Assembly (NCBI GenBank): GCA_017618115.1
Contig: JAFZUX010000015.1
Span: 18,476 to 82,475, forward strand
Reading direction: 5' to 3'
DNA length: 64,000 nt
Source of the DNA: Bacteroidales bacterium
Lineage (GTDB): Bacteria; Bacteroidota; Bacteroidia; Bacteroidales; UBA932
The position numbers and the translations under genes were made by a program. Position 1 is the stretch's first letter. Every line of letters starts with the position of its first letter. The notes under the pieces were generated by a model, which had not been told where the DNA came from, searched no databases, and worked only from the letters and a program-made list of their open reading frames with translations. Shown piece by piece: positions 34,526 to 39,415 of this stretch.

Positions 34526-35746
34526 CTACTGCTTGAGCCATAACTCTGGATTTTGCTTTTGCGTACCGTTCCAGAGTTCAAAGTGAAGCTCTGAACTTTC
34601 CTGCTTGGTATCCAGAGTTCCAATCAGTGCGCCCGTTGCAATCTTCTGACCTGCTTTCACATTCACGCGTCCCAGTTTGCAGTAGAAGGTGAAGTATTTG
34701 CCGTGCTCAACCAGAACGCAGTTGCTGTATCCAGGAATAACAATCACCTTCTTAACAACGCCCTCATAAACGGAGTATACGTTGCAACCCGTTGGTGCGG
34801 AAATATTTACACCGTTATTGAATGGTAACTTAACACCTTTTATGGTTGGGTGAGGATGCTCGCCGAATCCCTCAACTATCACTCCGCGCTTAACCGGCCA
34901 AGGAAGTTTTCCGCGGTTGTTTTCAAATGAACCGCTCAAACGTGCGCTCTCCGGAGTCTCCTTGTAAGCGGTTGTTTTACCTGTAGTTGTAGTTGTTTTT
35001 ATAGCCTCTGCAATCATCTTCTCTATCTCTTTGTTGAGGCGTGCGGCCTGCTCCTTCTTCTGCTTAAGTTCCTGAGTATATTTGGATTGCTGCTTTGCAA
35101 GAGATTTCTCCAGGTTCTTGTTTTTCTCCTGATCCTTCTTGAGTTTGTTCAGTTCCTCCTCTTTAGTGTGCTGAGTCTTACGGTTTTCCGCCTGCAGTTT
35201 GGAGAGCTGGCTCTTCTCTTCTTCCAACTCCCGGCTCGCTTTACGTATCTTTTTTGCTTCTAAGGAAAGCGCTGAGGAGTAGTTCTTTAGATAACTCCAA
35301 CGGCGGTATCCCTGCTCAATATTATCACTGGCAATGACATACATAAACCATTTGCGGGAGTCTCTGTTGTTGTACCCTTTGACTATCATTCTGCGGTACA
35401 TCTTCTTCAGCGTATCCAGCTGACGGCTCATGATTTCCAGCTTTTTAGCCTTGTCTGAAATCTCCTCGCTCTGGCGGTTGATATCCTTCTCCAACCTCTC
35501 AATGATTCTCTCTCTTACGTCCGCCTTCTTTTTGAGAAGATTGAGCTCTGCGATGGTGTTTTTGCGCTGCTTCTTTGTCTGTTCTATCTGCTTGTCTAAG
35601 AACTGAATATCCTGCTCCAACTTTCCCGCCTGTGCCTTTTTGCTTTCAATGTTTTTGTTCTGGCACAGGGCTTTGCAAGGGGCAAAGAGAAACATCCCGA
35701 TAATTATCGGGAGAATCCAAACCCTTGTTTTCAGATGCTCTCTCAT
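34526..35746 (-). CDS. EnvC/NlpD-type murein hydrolase activator with degenerate LytM domain
   Basis: The 406 residues consist of a signal sequence/short hydrophobic segment (about 10-28), a long coiled coil (about 35-245, rich in Lys, Glu, Gln) and a C-terminal M23/LytM domain (about 285-403). The zinc site is degraded: GxxNNGVNIS replaces the Asp ligand with Asn, YCKLG stands where a His is expected, and ELHFELW keeps only the second His of HxH. This is the pattern of EnvC, which activates amidases at division sites instead of cutting itself. The start overlaps the preceding TPR gene by 4 bp. Confidence 0.87.
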   Translation of the reverse strand: MREHLKTRVWILPIIIGMFLFAPCKALCQNKNIESKKAQAGKLEQDIQFLDKQIEQTKKQRKNTIAELNLLKKKADVRERIIERLEKDINRQSEEISDKAKKLEIMSRQLDTLKKMYRRMIVKGYNNRDSRKWFMYVIASDNIEQGYRRWSYLKNYSSALSLEAKKIRKASRELEEEKSQLSKLQAENRKTQHTKEEELNKLKKDQEKNKNLEKSLAKQQSKYTQELKQKKEQAARLNKEIEKMIAEAIKTTTTTGKTTAYKETPESARLSGSFENNRGKLPWPVKRGVIVEGFGEHPHPTIKGVKLPFNNGVNISAPTGCNVYSVYEGVVKKVIVIPGYSNCVLVEHGKYFTFYCKLGRVNVKAGQKIATGALIGTLDTKQESSELHFELWNGTQKQNPELWLKQ

Positions 35747-37506
35747 TTCTCTTCTCTTGCTTTTTTACGTGCCTCTACTTTTTTGGAAAGTTTCTCCAAT
35801 TCCGTGGTATCTGAGGTCTCCAAAGTGTTGTCTAAGGCCCTTTTAAGAGCTTTCTCATAGTAGATGAAGGCCAGGTCGTACTCCTTTAAGTCAAAGAGAA
35901 TATCTGCATAATGTTCCATAAGAACGGTGCTCTCTCCTCCGTCAAAAGCAACGGCCTGCTGGAGATATTTCTTTGCCTGCTCCTTCTCTCCCATAAGGTA
36001 GAGAATCCAGCCGTAGGTATCCAGATATGTAGATTCAGACGGATTGTCGTCTATTGTTATCTTGCTCATCTGCAACGCTTTGTTCAGATCACCCTGAGGC
36101 GTGCCGGTGGCAAGGTACCAGGCGTAGTTGTTAAGAACCGGAGCGTTTCTGGGATCCATCTTGAGAGCCTTTTTGTAAAATTTGAAGGCCTCTTTATTGT
36201 TCTCCTTCTGGTGGTAAATATCTCCCACAAAAGAGTAAATCTGAAGCAGAGTGGCTGTATCTTTCTCTCTCTTAAGGTTTTTCTCCTGAGAGAGCAGAGT
36301 CTCTATTGCCTCATCTAACTTTCCCTGGTTGTACTGTGCAATCCCCTTAAACTGAAACAGATCTTTGTTCTGCTCCGGAACCACCGCCATGGTGGAGTCT
36401 GTAAAGAGTTCAAGGCGAGGCCAATCCTCACGGCTGTAAAGGAAGGAGATAATGTTGGAACGGATGTAGTAATCCGTTGGGTAATACTTGAGAGTTCTCT
36501 CCAAAGCGTTCATAGCCAACTCGCTCTCTCCGCTGCGTGCCATGAACATTGCACTTGAGATGGCAATGGAACTGTCTGAAGGATGGGCTCTTGAGAGGGC
36601 GTCCAGACATTTGGACATCTCCTTTGCGTAACGCTGTTTGTATACCGGGAGTTCCATCACGCTCTCCACGTGCTGCTTCTTAATTGAAGGATCCACCTCA
36701 GGATTTTCCAAAAATGATTTGAGGTAACCCAGATAGAGGGCGTGGTTTCCATTTCTGCGGTAAATCTCCATTTTACCAAAGAGGGCGGGAATGCACTGAG
36801 GGTCATTTCTTAAGGCCTTGTCATAGTAAACAATGGCCAGGGAATCCTTTCCCTCAGACTCCAGAAGTTCCGCAATATAAGTCTCATAGAGTTCTGACGG
36901 TGTTTTGGCATCCGCCTCCTCCAGGACCTCAATAGCCTTCTGAGTGTTGTTCTGACCGCTGTAAATTTTAAAGCGGGTTATTGTGGAGATATCGTTCGGC
37001 CCCACCGCCTTCTCCAGACGGTCTGCCAGTATCAGGGCCCTATCTTGCTGTCCTCTTGGAATATAGATGTTTATCAGGTTAGTATAAGGATCTCTTTTTG
37101 TAGGATATTTGTTTACCAGCTTCTCAAAAATCTTTATGGCCTCCGTAACATCCGTGTTCTGCATGTAAACGGCGCCCAGGGTGGCGGCATAGTAGTAGTT
37201 GTTGCTGTCCAGTGCCACCGCCTGCCTCAAATTCATCTCTGCCGGCTGCAGTTTGTTTTCCACCAGGTCCACCTTTGCCATAAGGTAGAAGGCGGCGTCA
37301 TTGGCCGGGTTGTACTGCAGTGCCTGGCGACAAAGGGAGCGAACCTTTTCCGCATCGCGATAATTATATGCTCTTTGAGCCTCTATGATGCAGGAATCGC
37401 TCTTAAAAAGGTCTGTTTGCTTTGGTAAATCCTGCCCAAAGAGTCCTGTAGGGCAGAAAATCGGCACAAACAGTGCCCACAGCAGTGTGTATGCAATCTT
37501 TCTCAT
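35743..37506 (-). CDS. Exported tetratricopeptide-repeat protein
   Basis: With the ATG at 37506 the protein has 587 residues: signal peptide (MRKIAYTLLWALFVPIFCPTGLFGQ) followed by about 14 TPR units, e.g. AAFYLMAKVDLVENKLQPAEMN-like repeats and NAPVLNNYAWYLA near the end, and a Lys/Glu-rich tail. The open frame extends upstream to 37611 but over the promoter element at 37518-37525. The function is probably as an interaction platform in the periplasm. Its end overlaps the EnvC-like gene in an ATGA junction, suggesting that both act on the same envelope process. Confidence 0.88.
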   Translation of the reverse strand: MRKIAYTLLWALFVPIFCPTGLFGQDLPKQTDLFKSDSCIIEAQRAYNYRDAEKVRSLCRQALQYNPANDAAFYLMAKVDLVENKLQPAEMNLRQAVALDSNNYYYAATLGAVYMQNTDVTEAIKIFEKLVNKYPTKRDPYTNLINIYIPRGQQDRALILADRLEKAVGPNDISTITRFKIYSGQNNTQKAIEVLEEADAKTPSELYETYIAELLESEGKDSLAIVYYDKALRNDPQCIPALFGKMEIYRRNGNHALYLGYLKSFLENPEVDPSIKKQHVESVMELPVYKQRYAKEMSKCLDALSRAHPSDSSIAISSAMFMARSGESELAMNALERTLKYYPTDYYIRSNIISFLYSREDWPRLELFTDSTMAVVPEQNKDLFQFKGIAQYNQGKLDEAIETLLSQEKNLKREKDTATLLQIYSFVGDIYHQKENNKEAFKFYKKALKMDPRNAPVLNNYAWYLATGTPQGDLNKALQMSKITIDDNPSESTYLDTYGWILYLMGEKEQAKKYLQQAVAFDGGESTVLMEHYADILFDLKEYDLAFIYYEKALKRALDNTLETSDTTELEKLSKKVEARKKAREEK

Positions 37507-37517
37507 ATCTACCATTG

Positions 37518-37568: not shown

Positions 37569-37576
37569 TAAATTTG
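37569..37576 (+). promoter_or_regulatory. -7 promoter element of the ECF sigma/Dma operon
   Basis: TAAATTTG fits TAnnTTTG, with CTTG 18 nt upstream (37547-37550). It lies 39 nt before the sigma ATG and makes the more upstream in-frame start at 37574 impossible. The match to the housekeeping consensus suggests at least basal transcription by the main sigma factor. Confidence 0.5.
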
Positions 37577-37615
37577 TATTGCTTTTGCAACCTTTTGGGG
37601 CAAACTTGCATCTTT

Positions 37616-38185
37616 ATGTCAGAAGATAAGAAGACACGGGCACAGCAGGACTCTTACTCCGAGCTTGTGAAAAAATGCAGGGAGCAGGACAGAAGAGCTC
37701 AGAAAGAGCTCTATGACAGGCTCTCTGTAAAAATGTTCCCTGTCTGTCTGCGCTACATAGGAGATAGAGAAAAGAGCAAGGATGTCCTTCATGACGGCTT
37801 CATAACTCTATTTACCAAACTCAGAGAATACCGCGGTGACGGTGTTTTTGAGGGGTGGGCCAGAAGAATTTTCGTTACTACGGCACTTATGTACCTGCGT
37901 AAGAACGATGTTCTTCATCAAGCCAAACAGATTGACGGAGAGGTTCCGGTAACGGACAAGGAGTTTGTTCTGGATCCTAAAGAGACCGCCAATTTGGACG
38001 CGGACAAGATTATGGAACTGATTGTCTCAATGCCGGAGGGGTTTAGAACAGTCTTCAATCTCTATGCAATGGAGGGCTTCTCTCATAAGGAGATAGCAAA
38101 GATGTTGGGTTTGAGTGAGGGTGGATGCCGTTCTCAGCTTAGCCGGGCGAGAGTGTGGTTGCAGGAGAGACTAAAGAAGAAGTAA
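37616..38185 (+). CDS. ECF-type RNA polymerase sigma factor
   Basis: The 189 residues have sigma region 2 (about 15-90; VCLRYIGDREKSKDVLHDGFITLFTKLREYRGDGVFEGWARRIF region, without a sigma 1.1 or 3 domain) and region 4 (about 128-185; MPEGFRTVFNLYAMEGFSHKEIA then LSEGGCRSQLSRARVWLQ). It is followed after 3 bp by the predicted dual membrane-spanning anti-sigma factor, which is expected to hold it inactive at the membrane. The start at 37616 fits the promoter upstream. Target genes are unknown. Confidence 0.92.
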   Translation: MSEDKKTRAQQDSYSELVKKCREQDRRAQKELYDRLSVKMFPVCLRYIGDREKSKDVLHDGFITLFTKLREYRGDGVFEGWARRIFVTTALMYLRKNDVLHQAKQIDGEVPVTDKEFVLDPKETANLDADKIMELIVSMPEGFRTVFNLYAMEGFSHKEIAKMLGLSEGGCRSQLSRARVWLQERLKKK

Positions 38186-38188
38186 CCC

Positions 38189-39415
38189 GTGCAAAATAGT
38201 AAGAAAGTGAAAGAATTAAAGAAGATATTGGACGAGGGCTTAAGCAACAAGTGGTCTCTTACAGAGAGCGAGAAATCCTCTTTGTGGGACGCCATTGAGG
38301 CACAGTTGGATCCTGCAGCACCGGTGGCCGCTCCTAAGAGGGGAGGCTTCATCAGATGGTACTATGCTGCAGCAGCTCTGGCTGCCGCTGCGGTTGCCCT
38401 TTTCTTCTTACTCAAAGCACCTTCTTCACCGAACACCCCTTTCCAGCCTGAAATTCAACCTATTGAAAAAACTACAATTGTGGCGGGGAACGGGGCGGAC
38501 AATATAGCTGACACGCAAAAAGGTGAAAAGGATGTTCAGATGCCTCTGCTGGCCCATGCGGGTTACAAAAATCCTGTAAGCCAGCAAGGTCTATCTGGAT
38601 ATTCAGAGCCTGAGCCTGAGACTGAAACTGAGATTGTTACGGTAACTGAACCGTCAACAGAGGAGGTTCCCGTTAAAGAGGCTGAGCCGCAAAAGAGTTC
38701 AGTAAAGCCTAGTAAGGAGGAGGTTACACGTGCTCAGGTTGAGCGCAACAGTTATTTGGCGGAGAACAACAAAAAGTCCTACGGCCAGAGGATTTCAATT
38801 AATGCCGCTTCAAACTTCTCAAGCAGAGGCAAATTGGAGTCTCCATCCCTCGGATTTATTCAGGGGTTGGTTCCAAGTTATGAGATGCACTCTGCAGCCC
38901 CTCAAATAAGCAAAGTTTCCAACACTAAATATACTCTCCCTCTAATGTTCACTCTGGGAGTAAGTTACAAGTTAAGTGACGTTGTAACCGTTGGTTCCGG
39001 TGTAAGATATACCTATCTGCACAGCAAGTACAACGGTTTTATGAACGGAATTTACTATGACATCAAACAGGCCATTCACTATATTGGTGTTCCGGTAAAC
39101 TTTAACTTTAACGTAGTCTCTTCCAACTCCTGGAATGTATATGCAACTGCAGGAGGAACAGTGGAAAAGGGTGTGAGAGTTACCTATCAGGCAAGGACTT
39201 CCGGTCAGGATAAGACTTACAACTCAACTGTCAAAGGCTTGCAATTTTCTGTTGGAACCGGTATCGGTCTTGAGTATAACTTTAGCAAGAGCGTAGGTCT
39301 CTATCTTCAGCCGCAGGTTGTATACTACTTTGACAATAAGGCTCCTGAGAACATACGCAGCAGCCAGCCTCTGCAAGTTGAGGCTGAGGTGGGTCTCCGT
39401 TTCCACATTAAATAA
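38189..39415 (+). CDS. Predicted dual membrane-spanning anti-sigma factor (Dma-type): inner-membrane helix plus outer-membrane barrel
   Basis: The 408 residues start with GTG, 3 bp after the sigma gene. Layout: cytoplasmic, charged N-terminus (1-55) suited to sigma binding; one membrane helix (about 58-76, Ala-rich, ending FFLL); an acidic, Pro/Thr/Glu-rich linker (about 80-195; ETETEIVTVTEPSTEEV) long enough to cross the periplasm; then an eight-strand-like outer-membrane barrel (about 198-408) with alternating aromatic strands and a closing VGLRFHIK. Proteins with this layout encoded next to ECF sigma factors have been described in Bacteroides thetaiotaomicron as Dma proteins that control vesiculation. 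Assignment here rests on topology and gene order. Confidence 0.78.
   Translation: MQNSKKVKELKKILDEGLSNKWSLTESEKSSLWDAIEAQLDPAAPVAAPKRGGFIRWYYAAAALAAAAVALFFLLKAPSSPNTPFQPEIQPIEKTTIVAGNGADNIADTQKGEKDVQMPLLAHAGYKNPVSQQGLSGYSEPEPETETEIVTVTEPSTEEVPVKEAEPQKSSVKPSKEEVTRAQVERNSYLAENNKKSYGQRISINAASNFSSRGKLESPSLGFIQGLVPSYEMHSAAPQISKVSNTKYTLPLMFTLGVSYKLSDVVTVGSGVRYTYLHSKYNGFMNGIYYDIKQAIHYIGVPVNFNFNVVSSNSWNVYATAGGTVEKGVRVTYQARTSGQDKTYNSTVKGLQFSVGTGIGLEYNFSKSVGLYLQPQVVYYFDNKAPENIRSSQPLQVEAEVGLRFHIK

Follow-up and report, generated by a model that had tools for sequence, protein, structure and literature searches.

How do Bacteroidota sense damage to their outer membrane, and which genes respond to it? This question is still open, and the EcfO-Reo and Dma pairs of sigma and anti-sigma factors that bear on it are recent. 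It is raised again by a locus in the window, the whole stretch of 64,000 nucleotides from a Bacteroidales bacterium that was analysed here. A gene for an extracytoplasmic function (ECF) sigma factor of 189 aa lies at 37616..38185 on the + strand. Its product matched Sigma70_r2 (E 8e-9) and Sigma70_r4_2 (E 8.5e-15), both over the cut-off, and most likely starts at the ATG at position 37616. After a gap of 3 bp it is followed on the same strand by a gene of 408 aa with a GTG start (38189..39415), assigned to an anti-sigma factor of the Dma/Reo type from its architecture and from a profile match to a Bacteroides finegoldii protein. Sequence comparison supports the placement of this pair as a further member of the EcfO-Reo / Das-Dma kind. 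Moreover, it is probable that the pair acts as an outer-membrane stress switch of that kind, which would drive both its own operon and a small RNA.

What would the sigma factor read? The original prediction had proposed a search for the sigma factor's own promoter motif, and this search returned a shared element before the sigma gene in all 21 family loci compared: TGCA[A/G]C, exactly 16 bp, then GCATC. In the window it reads TGCAAC-N16-GCATCT, at positions 37586..37613 of the + strand. By our own estimate, chance would produce such an element in about one of two thousand 250-bp regions. AAC in the -35 box is typical of ECF promoters. The conservation of TGCA[A/G]C-N16-GCATC suggests that it is the promoter recognised by the freed sigma factor. 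Of 15 loci from other families, four have the element at the start of sigma (at L118 and L128 it lies 40-52 nt inside the start of the mechanically called open reading frame, ORF). A comparable element of B. finegoldii, GCA[A/G]TATTTC-N10-GCATT (that is, GCA[A/G]T-N15-GCATT), is directed at both the sigma gene and a divergent nigD gene.

The pattern GCARC-N16-GCATCW gave 72 matches in six genomes of the window's genus, versus 21 for the reversed pattern; 20 of these 72 were read in context, in addition to the sigma promoters. Ten matches fall in the window's own genome. One of them is the sigma promoter, and three precede a phage-integrase-family gene, a TonB-dependent receptor gene and an RNA-like unit, respectively. 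The RNA-like unit overlaps a mechanically called 372-aa ORF antisense to a 438-aa ORF, and the 372-aa ORF was taken as spurious. Motif sites 96-138 nt before a TonB-dependent receptor gene were seen in three genomes of the genus (L167:2135-2161, L174:2229-2255 and L176:1870-1896). They are tentatively regarded as targets of the sigma factor; being a palindrome, the site might instead function as a terminator. In L177 and L182, from two genomes of the window's genus, the motif lies with a different spacer on the minus strand before an M16 peptidase gene, likewise a tentative observation.

Three genomes of the genus share the layout of the RNA unit, in which the promoter is followed by AGTGTAGGTTTAGGTTTTAGTA and this by a hairpin with a T-run, both of differing sequence. 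The conserved 5' segment, AGGUUUAGGUUUUAGUA, is 17 nt long and contains no C. A 21-base segment, searched on its own with at most two mismatches, was found in 63 of 199 family genomes, the 63 belonging to 8 of 25 genera, nearly always once per genome; within the window's genus, 19 of 20 genomes have it. The reversed segment, used as a control, gave 4 matches in 4 genomes. All 30 loci fetched by the 5' segment (29 of them distinct) carry TGCA[A/G]C-N16-GCATC, and the distance from promoter to segment takes two fixed values, 2 nt apart, depending on the genus. Five loci first found via the promoter also carry promoter and segment at those distances. Once later loci were added, the promoter was present in 44/44, part of which were found with a model that includes the promoter. 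In an alignment of 32 rows, the promoter hexamers are invariant and the 5' segment is nearly so, partly through the selection of the loci.

The 3' part of the unit is recognisable by its structure. Of 34 distinct loci, 33 close with a hairpin and a T-run some 60-70 nt from the start; the remaining one is truncated by a contig end. Each of six folded RNAs formed a strong hairpin (z-scores of the minimum free energy from -2.65 to -5.0), with stem sequences that differ. No ATG-started ORF of at least 10 aa occurs in the first ~55 nt of the 44 distinct loci. A search of Rfam with L166, L180 and L183 gave only three microRNA matches (E 0.08-0.5), far below the gathering scores. Altogether, these features describe a short, apparently non-coding RNA of 60-70 nt with a terminator-like hairpin. 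Its copy in the window's own genome lies outside the window, at L166:2119-2213 (G000:C18:30618-30712), near genes that by eye are sufC/sufD-like and UDP-sugar dehydrogenase-like. In another genome of the genus (L183) the neighbours of the RNA are likewise sufC/sufD-like.

Does this RNA belong to the sigma/anti-sigma pair? The anti-sigma gene has an ECF sigma ORF nearby in all of 25 family loci (the anti-sigma ORF of one, L008, being identified by eye) and in all of 30 further loci, of which 25 come from other families and 5 from the window's family; thus the pairing is not due to chance. A natural fusion of sigma factor and Dma, similar to Dma3, was considered for the long frames L113-L117 and rejected. 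A separate sigma ORF is present in four of them, and blast gave no sigma ORF in L117. The window's own genome has one anti-sigma homologue. Several other genomes of the family, among them G014, G079, G134 and G144, have 3-5, i.e. paralogous two-membrane anti-sigma factors. A homologue is present in 124 of 149 family genomes. A profile search over the order gave 178 of 294 genomes, which is an upper bound, many of the matches covering only the N-terminus or the linker.

The RNA was counted over the same 149 family genomes with a sequence-only model, R1, of 97 positions, built from 32 of the 34 loci. It was found in 79 genomes, representing 15 of 25 genera. All 79 carry the anti-sigma gene, and the RNA is present in none of the 25 genomes that lack this gene (five of these 25 follow by subtraction). 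The hypergeometric probability of this co-occurrence is 4e-10 when relatedness is ignored; the 25 genomes fall in few genera, so that few independent losses are involved. The clearest case is G027, the sole one of 12 genomes of the window's genus without the anti-sigma gene, and the RNA is absent there too. In the order-wide sample, R1 matched all five genomes of the family with E-values of 4e-11 or better. Among 289 genomes of other families, R1 had weak matches in 52 (E <= 0.05, the best at 2.2e-4) versus a nominal ~14, the E-values being rough. Of 25 such loci inspected (L220-L244), L237 alone carries an exact copy of the promoter where the model matches. There, in a genome of another family, TGCAAC-N16-GCATCT is followed by AGTGCAGATTTTAC (L237:1501-1567), and no terminator, sigma ORF or anti-sigma ORF was seen; a diverged RNA and a chance match are both possible. 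The RNA was thus not convincingly found outside the window's family, where it is to be considered unproven rather than absent.

The switch would operate as follows. The anti-sigma factor would be anchored by its inner-membrane helix, with a disordered linker crossing the periplasm and a small barrel sitting in the outer membrane. Its cytoplasmic N-terminus, judging from the architecture and from published relatives, would hold the ECF sigma factor. When outer-membrane assembly or lipopolysaccharide is disturbed, the barrel end might be misplaced or misfolded and the protein cleaved or pulled, which would free the sigma factor. The freed sigma factor would then recognise TGCA[A/G]C-N16-GCATC and transcribe its own operon; to this, many of the family's genomes would add the RNA of 60-70 nt, the expression and control of which we infer. 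By analogy with the sigmaE RNAs, this RNA would most likely base-pair around the start codons of outer-membrane protein mRNAs and so reduce the synthesis of these proteins. We consider the chances slightly better than even that a Dma/Reo-type system runs such a noncoding arm, in which the AGGUUUAGGUUUUAGUA RNA, transcribed by the sigma factor, tunes outer-membrane protein synthesis without Hfq.

Several observations weigh against this reading. In the window and in its four closest relatives (L093-L096) the end of the -10 element lies 2 nt ahead of the ATG of sigma; the transcript would therefore be leaderless, or translation would start further downstream, and leaderless mRNAs amount to only 5.5% in Flavobacterium psychrophilum (PMC9723704). 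Even a relaxed motif is absent at the Phocaeicola massiliensis locus (L134), and six of the ten motif matches in the window's own genome lie inside ORFs of more than 120 aa. As for the RNA, its 5' segment is fully unpaired in three of the six folded molecules and forms a short weak stem in the other three. A simple terminator scan finds none at L166, although folding shows a hairpin there. Apart from the RNA itself, 12 genomes contained no near-full match to the 18-nt complement of the 5' segment, and imperfect complement sites in these genomes numbered 17, versus 68 for the reversed control. Single-sequence structure models of the anti-sigma factor were unusable, with a mean predicted local distance difference test (pLDDT) score of 35 for the whole protein and 28 for the C-terminal domain alone. 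Finally, 45 of the 124 anti-sigma-positive genomes are without detectable RNA, and the window's own genome contains 8 Sigma70_r4_2 matches, so that another ECF sigma factor could read the motif.

The last two points lead to the alternative that survives best. The locus might encode an ordinary Dma/Reo pair, the RNA being real but read by another ECF sigma factor with an overlapping promoter preference; indeed, ECF promoters resemble each other. However, the identical two-part element with its 16-bp spacer heads both the sigma operon (21/21) and the RNA (30/30 segment-fetched loci), and the RNA does not occur in any of the 25 genomes devoid of the anti-sigma gene. We therefore regard transcription by another sigma factor as unlikely, and prefer control of the RNA by the sigma factor of the pair.

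The lack of targets is relevant to a further alternative, in which the conserved AGGTTTAGGTTTTAGTA element, instead of being a trans-acting RNA, serves a downstream gene as leader or attenuator or functions as a DNA element. Neither a duplex-energy scan of 290 candidate start sites, covering part of the window's own genome, nor the complement searches yielded a convincing target, and downstream genes were read at a minority of the RNA loci. The structure of the unit argues in the other direction, since the hairpin and T-run close it at nearly every distinct locus and the hairpin is kept while the stem sequences change. Moreover, L166, L180 and L183 differ in sequence past the hairpin, and the main ORF in this region is on the strand opposite to the unit. 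A cis-acting element is consequently improbable, and a separate small RNA remains the preferred description.

The surroundings of the pair offered another candidate target. A gene for a tetratricopeptide repeat (TPR) protein (35743..37509, - strand, start taken at about 37509) is divergent from the sigma gene, and a gene for an EnvC-like protein (34526..35746, Peptidase_M23 E 1.6e-18) adjoins it on the same strand. These two genes are divergent from sigma in 20 of 20 family loci with wide flanks; in 18 of them they directly adjoin it, and in L101 and L109 the distance is 1.5-2.4 kb. The sigma factor could thus mainly control the TPR-EnvC pair, and with it peptidoglycan remodelling; in Phocaeicola vulgatus the nigD gene adjoining ecfO is a target of EcfO (PMC13114119). 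However, no sigma motif points toward TPR-EnvC in the upstream regions of 21 family loci, which is why the pair was set aside as main target. Further genes, uvrA among them, are likewise retained in the vicinity, and general synteny may explain the position of TPR-EnvC. Control of mainly this pair has, in our view, a low probability compared with the outer-membrane stress switch described above. The same blast gave no TPR-EnvC beside sigma in 15 loci from other families, a weak absence given that TPR identity is ~30% even within the family.

The original prediction had drawn on both neighbouring operons and on the control of vesicle formation by Dma proteins; neither a role in vesicles nor a link to mla/waaA gained support here. 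Its link to EnvC/TPR is not borne out by the motif, despite the conserved divergence of the genes, and the 'mlaEF-waaA' operon is not a single one, mlaFE lying on the - strand and waaA divergently on the +. Before the sigma promoter, at 37569..37576 on the + strand, TAAATTTG is a possible basal promoter: it fits TAnnTTTG, the -7 consensus of sigmaABfr in Bacteroidetes (PMC7366714), and could give a basal transcript of the sigma operon.

What would the anti-sigma factor sense? Its N-terminal part (residues 1-52, 38189..38344, + strand as for the following parts) contains putative sigma-binding helices. Helices at residues 3-22 and 26-40 were modelled with pLDDT values of 58-71 in blocks, within an otherwise poor single-sequence model, and W33 is invariant in our alignment A1. 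One transmembrane helix is predicted at about residues 54-77 (38348..38419): the best 19-residue hydropathy window is at residue 59, with a mean of 1.99, and a helix is modelled at 54-75. It is followed by an acidic Pro/Ser/Thr linker at residues 78-198 (38420..38782), the 121 residues of which include 20 D/E, 12 K/R, 13 P and 21 S/T. The linker shows no conservation in alignment A1, and its composition and variability fit a long disordered linker. The C-terminal part (residues 199-408, 38783..39412) is a predicted domain of the outer-membrane beta-barrel type. Its residues 230-372 match OMP_b-brl_2 (PF13568) over the cut-off, and all 24 members of alignment A1 match this family at E <= 0.01. 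Strands alternate strongly along the domain, and the last one, EVGLRFHIK, is barrel-like.

These data confirm the observations of the original prediction and support its interpretation in part. The sigma and anti-sigma ORFs are where it placed them, 3 bp apart, and the N-terminus, the single membrane helix and the acidic linker are as it described them. Its Dma-type reading is favoured by the architecture, the gene order and the homology to sigma/barrel pairs of B. finegoldii and P. massiliensis. As to the C-terminal outer-membrane barrel, the PF13568 match and the strand pattern agree with it, but a closed barrel could not be derived from models of such low pLDDT. A periplasmic beta domain, with which the protein would sense the periplasm only, would be compatible with these unusable models and with the absence of a convincing solved structural relative by sequence, but it is very improbable in view of the PF13568 matches, the strand alternation with its barrel-like last strand, and the published relatives, which are predicted to extend to the outer membrane (PMC9308784, PMC13088901).

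How does this system compare with those already known? Named homologues were found by tblastn of plasmid records in B. finegoldii (L133) and P. massiliensis (L134). In both, a sigma gene is followed by a gene for a PF13568 protein, and a NigD-like gene is divergent from sigma. The P. massiliensis nigD/sigma/anti-sigma set (L134:183-2905) is on a 16.6-kb 'plasmid' record and is followed by an ORF that by eye is ribulose-phosphate-epimerase-like; this record may be chromosomal. The profile of the window's family matched the B. finegoldii anti-sigma factor with an hhalign probability of 100 and an E-value of 5e-38 over the barrel, and blastp to the named Bacteroides anti-sigma factor gave 33% over 165 aa. 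The two sigma factors, from the window and from B. finegoldii, are 42% identical over 175 aa.

In P. vulgatus, the published EcfO-Reo gene set consists of the sigma factor, the barrel anti-sigma factor and nigD, and Reo is predicted to span from the cytoplasm to the surface. The system answers toxin and envelope stress, and loss of Reo or toxin treatment turns the EcfO regulon on and lengthens the O-antigen (PMC9308784, PMC13114119). nigD genes belong to this regulon (PMC13114119). EcfO-Reo of B. fragilis/P. vulgatus (M0N98_03761-03760) resembles the window in having a sigma gene followed by an anti-sigma factor with a helix, a periplasmic stretch and a C-terminal barrel. Three features differ: TPR-EnvC occupies the place beside sigma that the NigD gene has in EcfO-Reo, the promoter is GCAAC-N16-GCATC versus GCA[A/G]T-N15-GCATT in B. 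finegoldii, and the sigma motif of the window's family also heads a small RNA. Dma1 and Dma2 of Bacteroides thetaiotaomicron have a four-part architecture (PMC13088901). The Dma1-Das1 and Dma2-Das2 pairs are like the window in this architecture and in the adjacent sigma gene, the comparison being with their published descriptions.

An RNA of another kind with an ECF-type promoter is already in print for Bacteroidota. For F. psychrophilum, Table 2C of PMC9723704 lists Rfp11, a putative regulatory RNA, under a promoter of the ECF type (SM6); it is placed in a regulon of type IX secretion, with a -10 of the CGT type (PMC9723704). It resembles the candidate RNA in its phylum, in its type of promoter and in sharing one table with an ECF sigma/anti-sigma pair. 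Bacteroides has no obvious Hfq or ProQ homologue (PMC7366714). An RNA tied to an EcfO/Dma-type two-membrane anti-sigma factor was not met in the open literature searched, subscription papers and preprints lying outside it, and this connection is provisionally considered new. The readable promoter and the conserved RNA segment provide a handle on the regulon, the RNA and its targets in any member of the family.

In Proteobacteria, RybB and MicA are small RNAs of the sigmaE response. FoxI and FoxJ are small RNAs of the sigmaE type in Fusobacterium (PMC11005410). The candidate RNA shares with all four an envelope-stress ECF promoter, a conserved 5' segment and a terminator hairpin. Unlike them, it occurs in another phylum, with another anti-sigma factor and with a C-free segment of 17 nt. 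The question is then whether Bacteroidota restrain their outer-membrane proteins through RNA in the way that Proteobacteria and Fusobacteria do. If so, the sigmaE-type RNA brake would be present in a third phylum, where it would be built with an unrelated anti-sigma factor.

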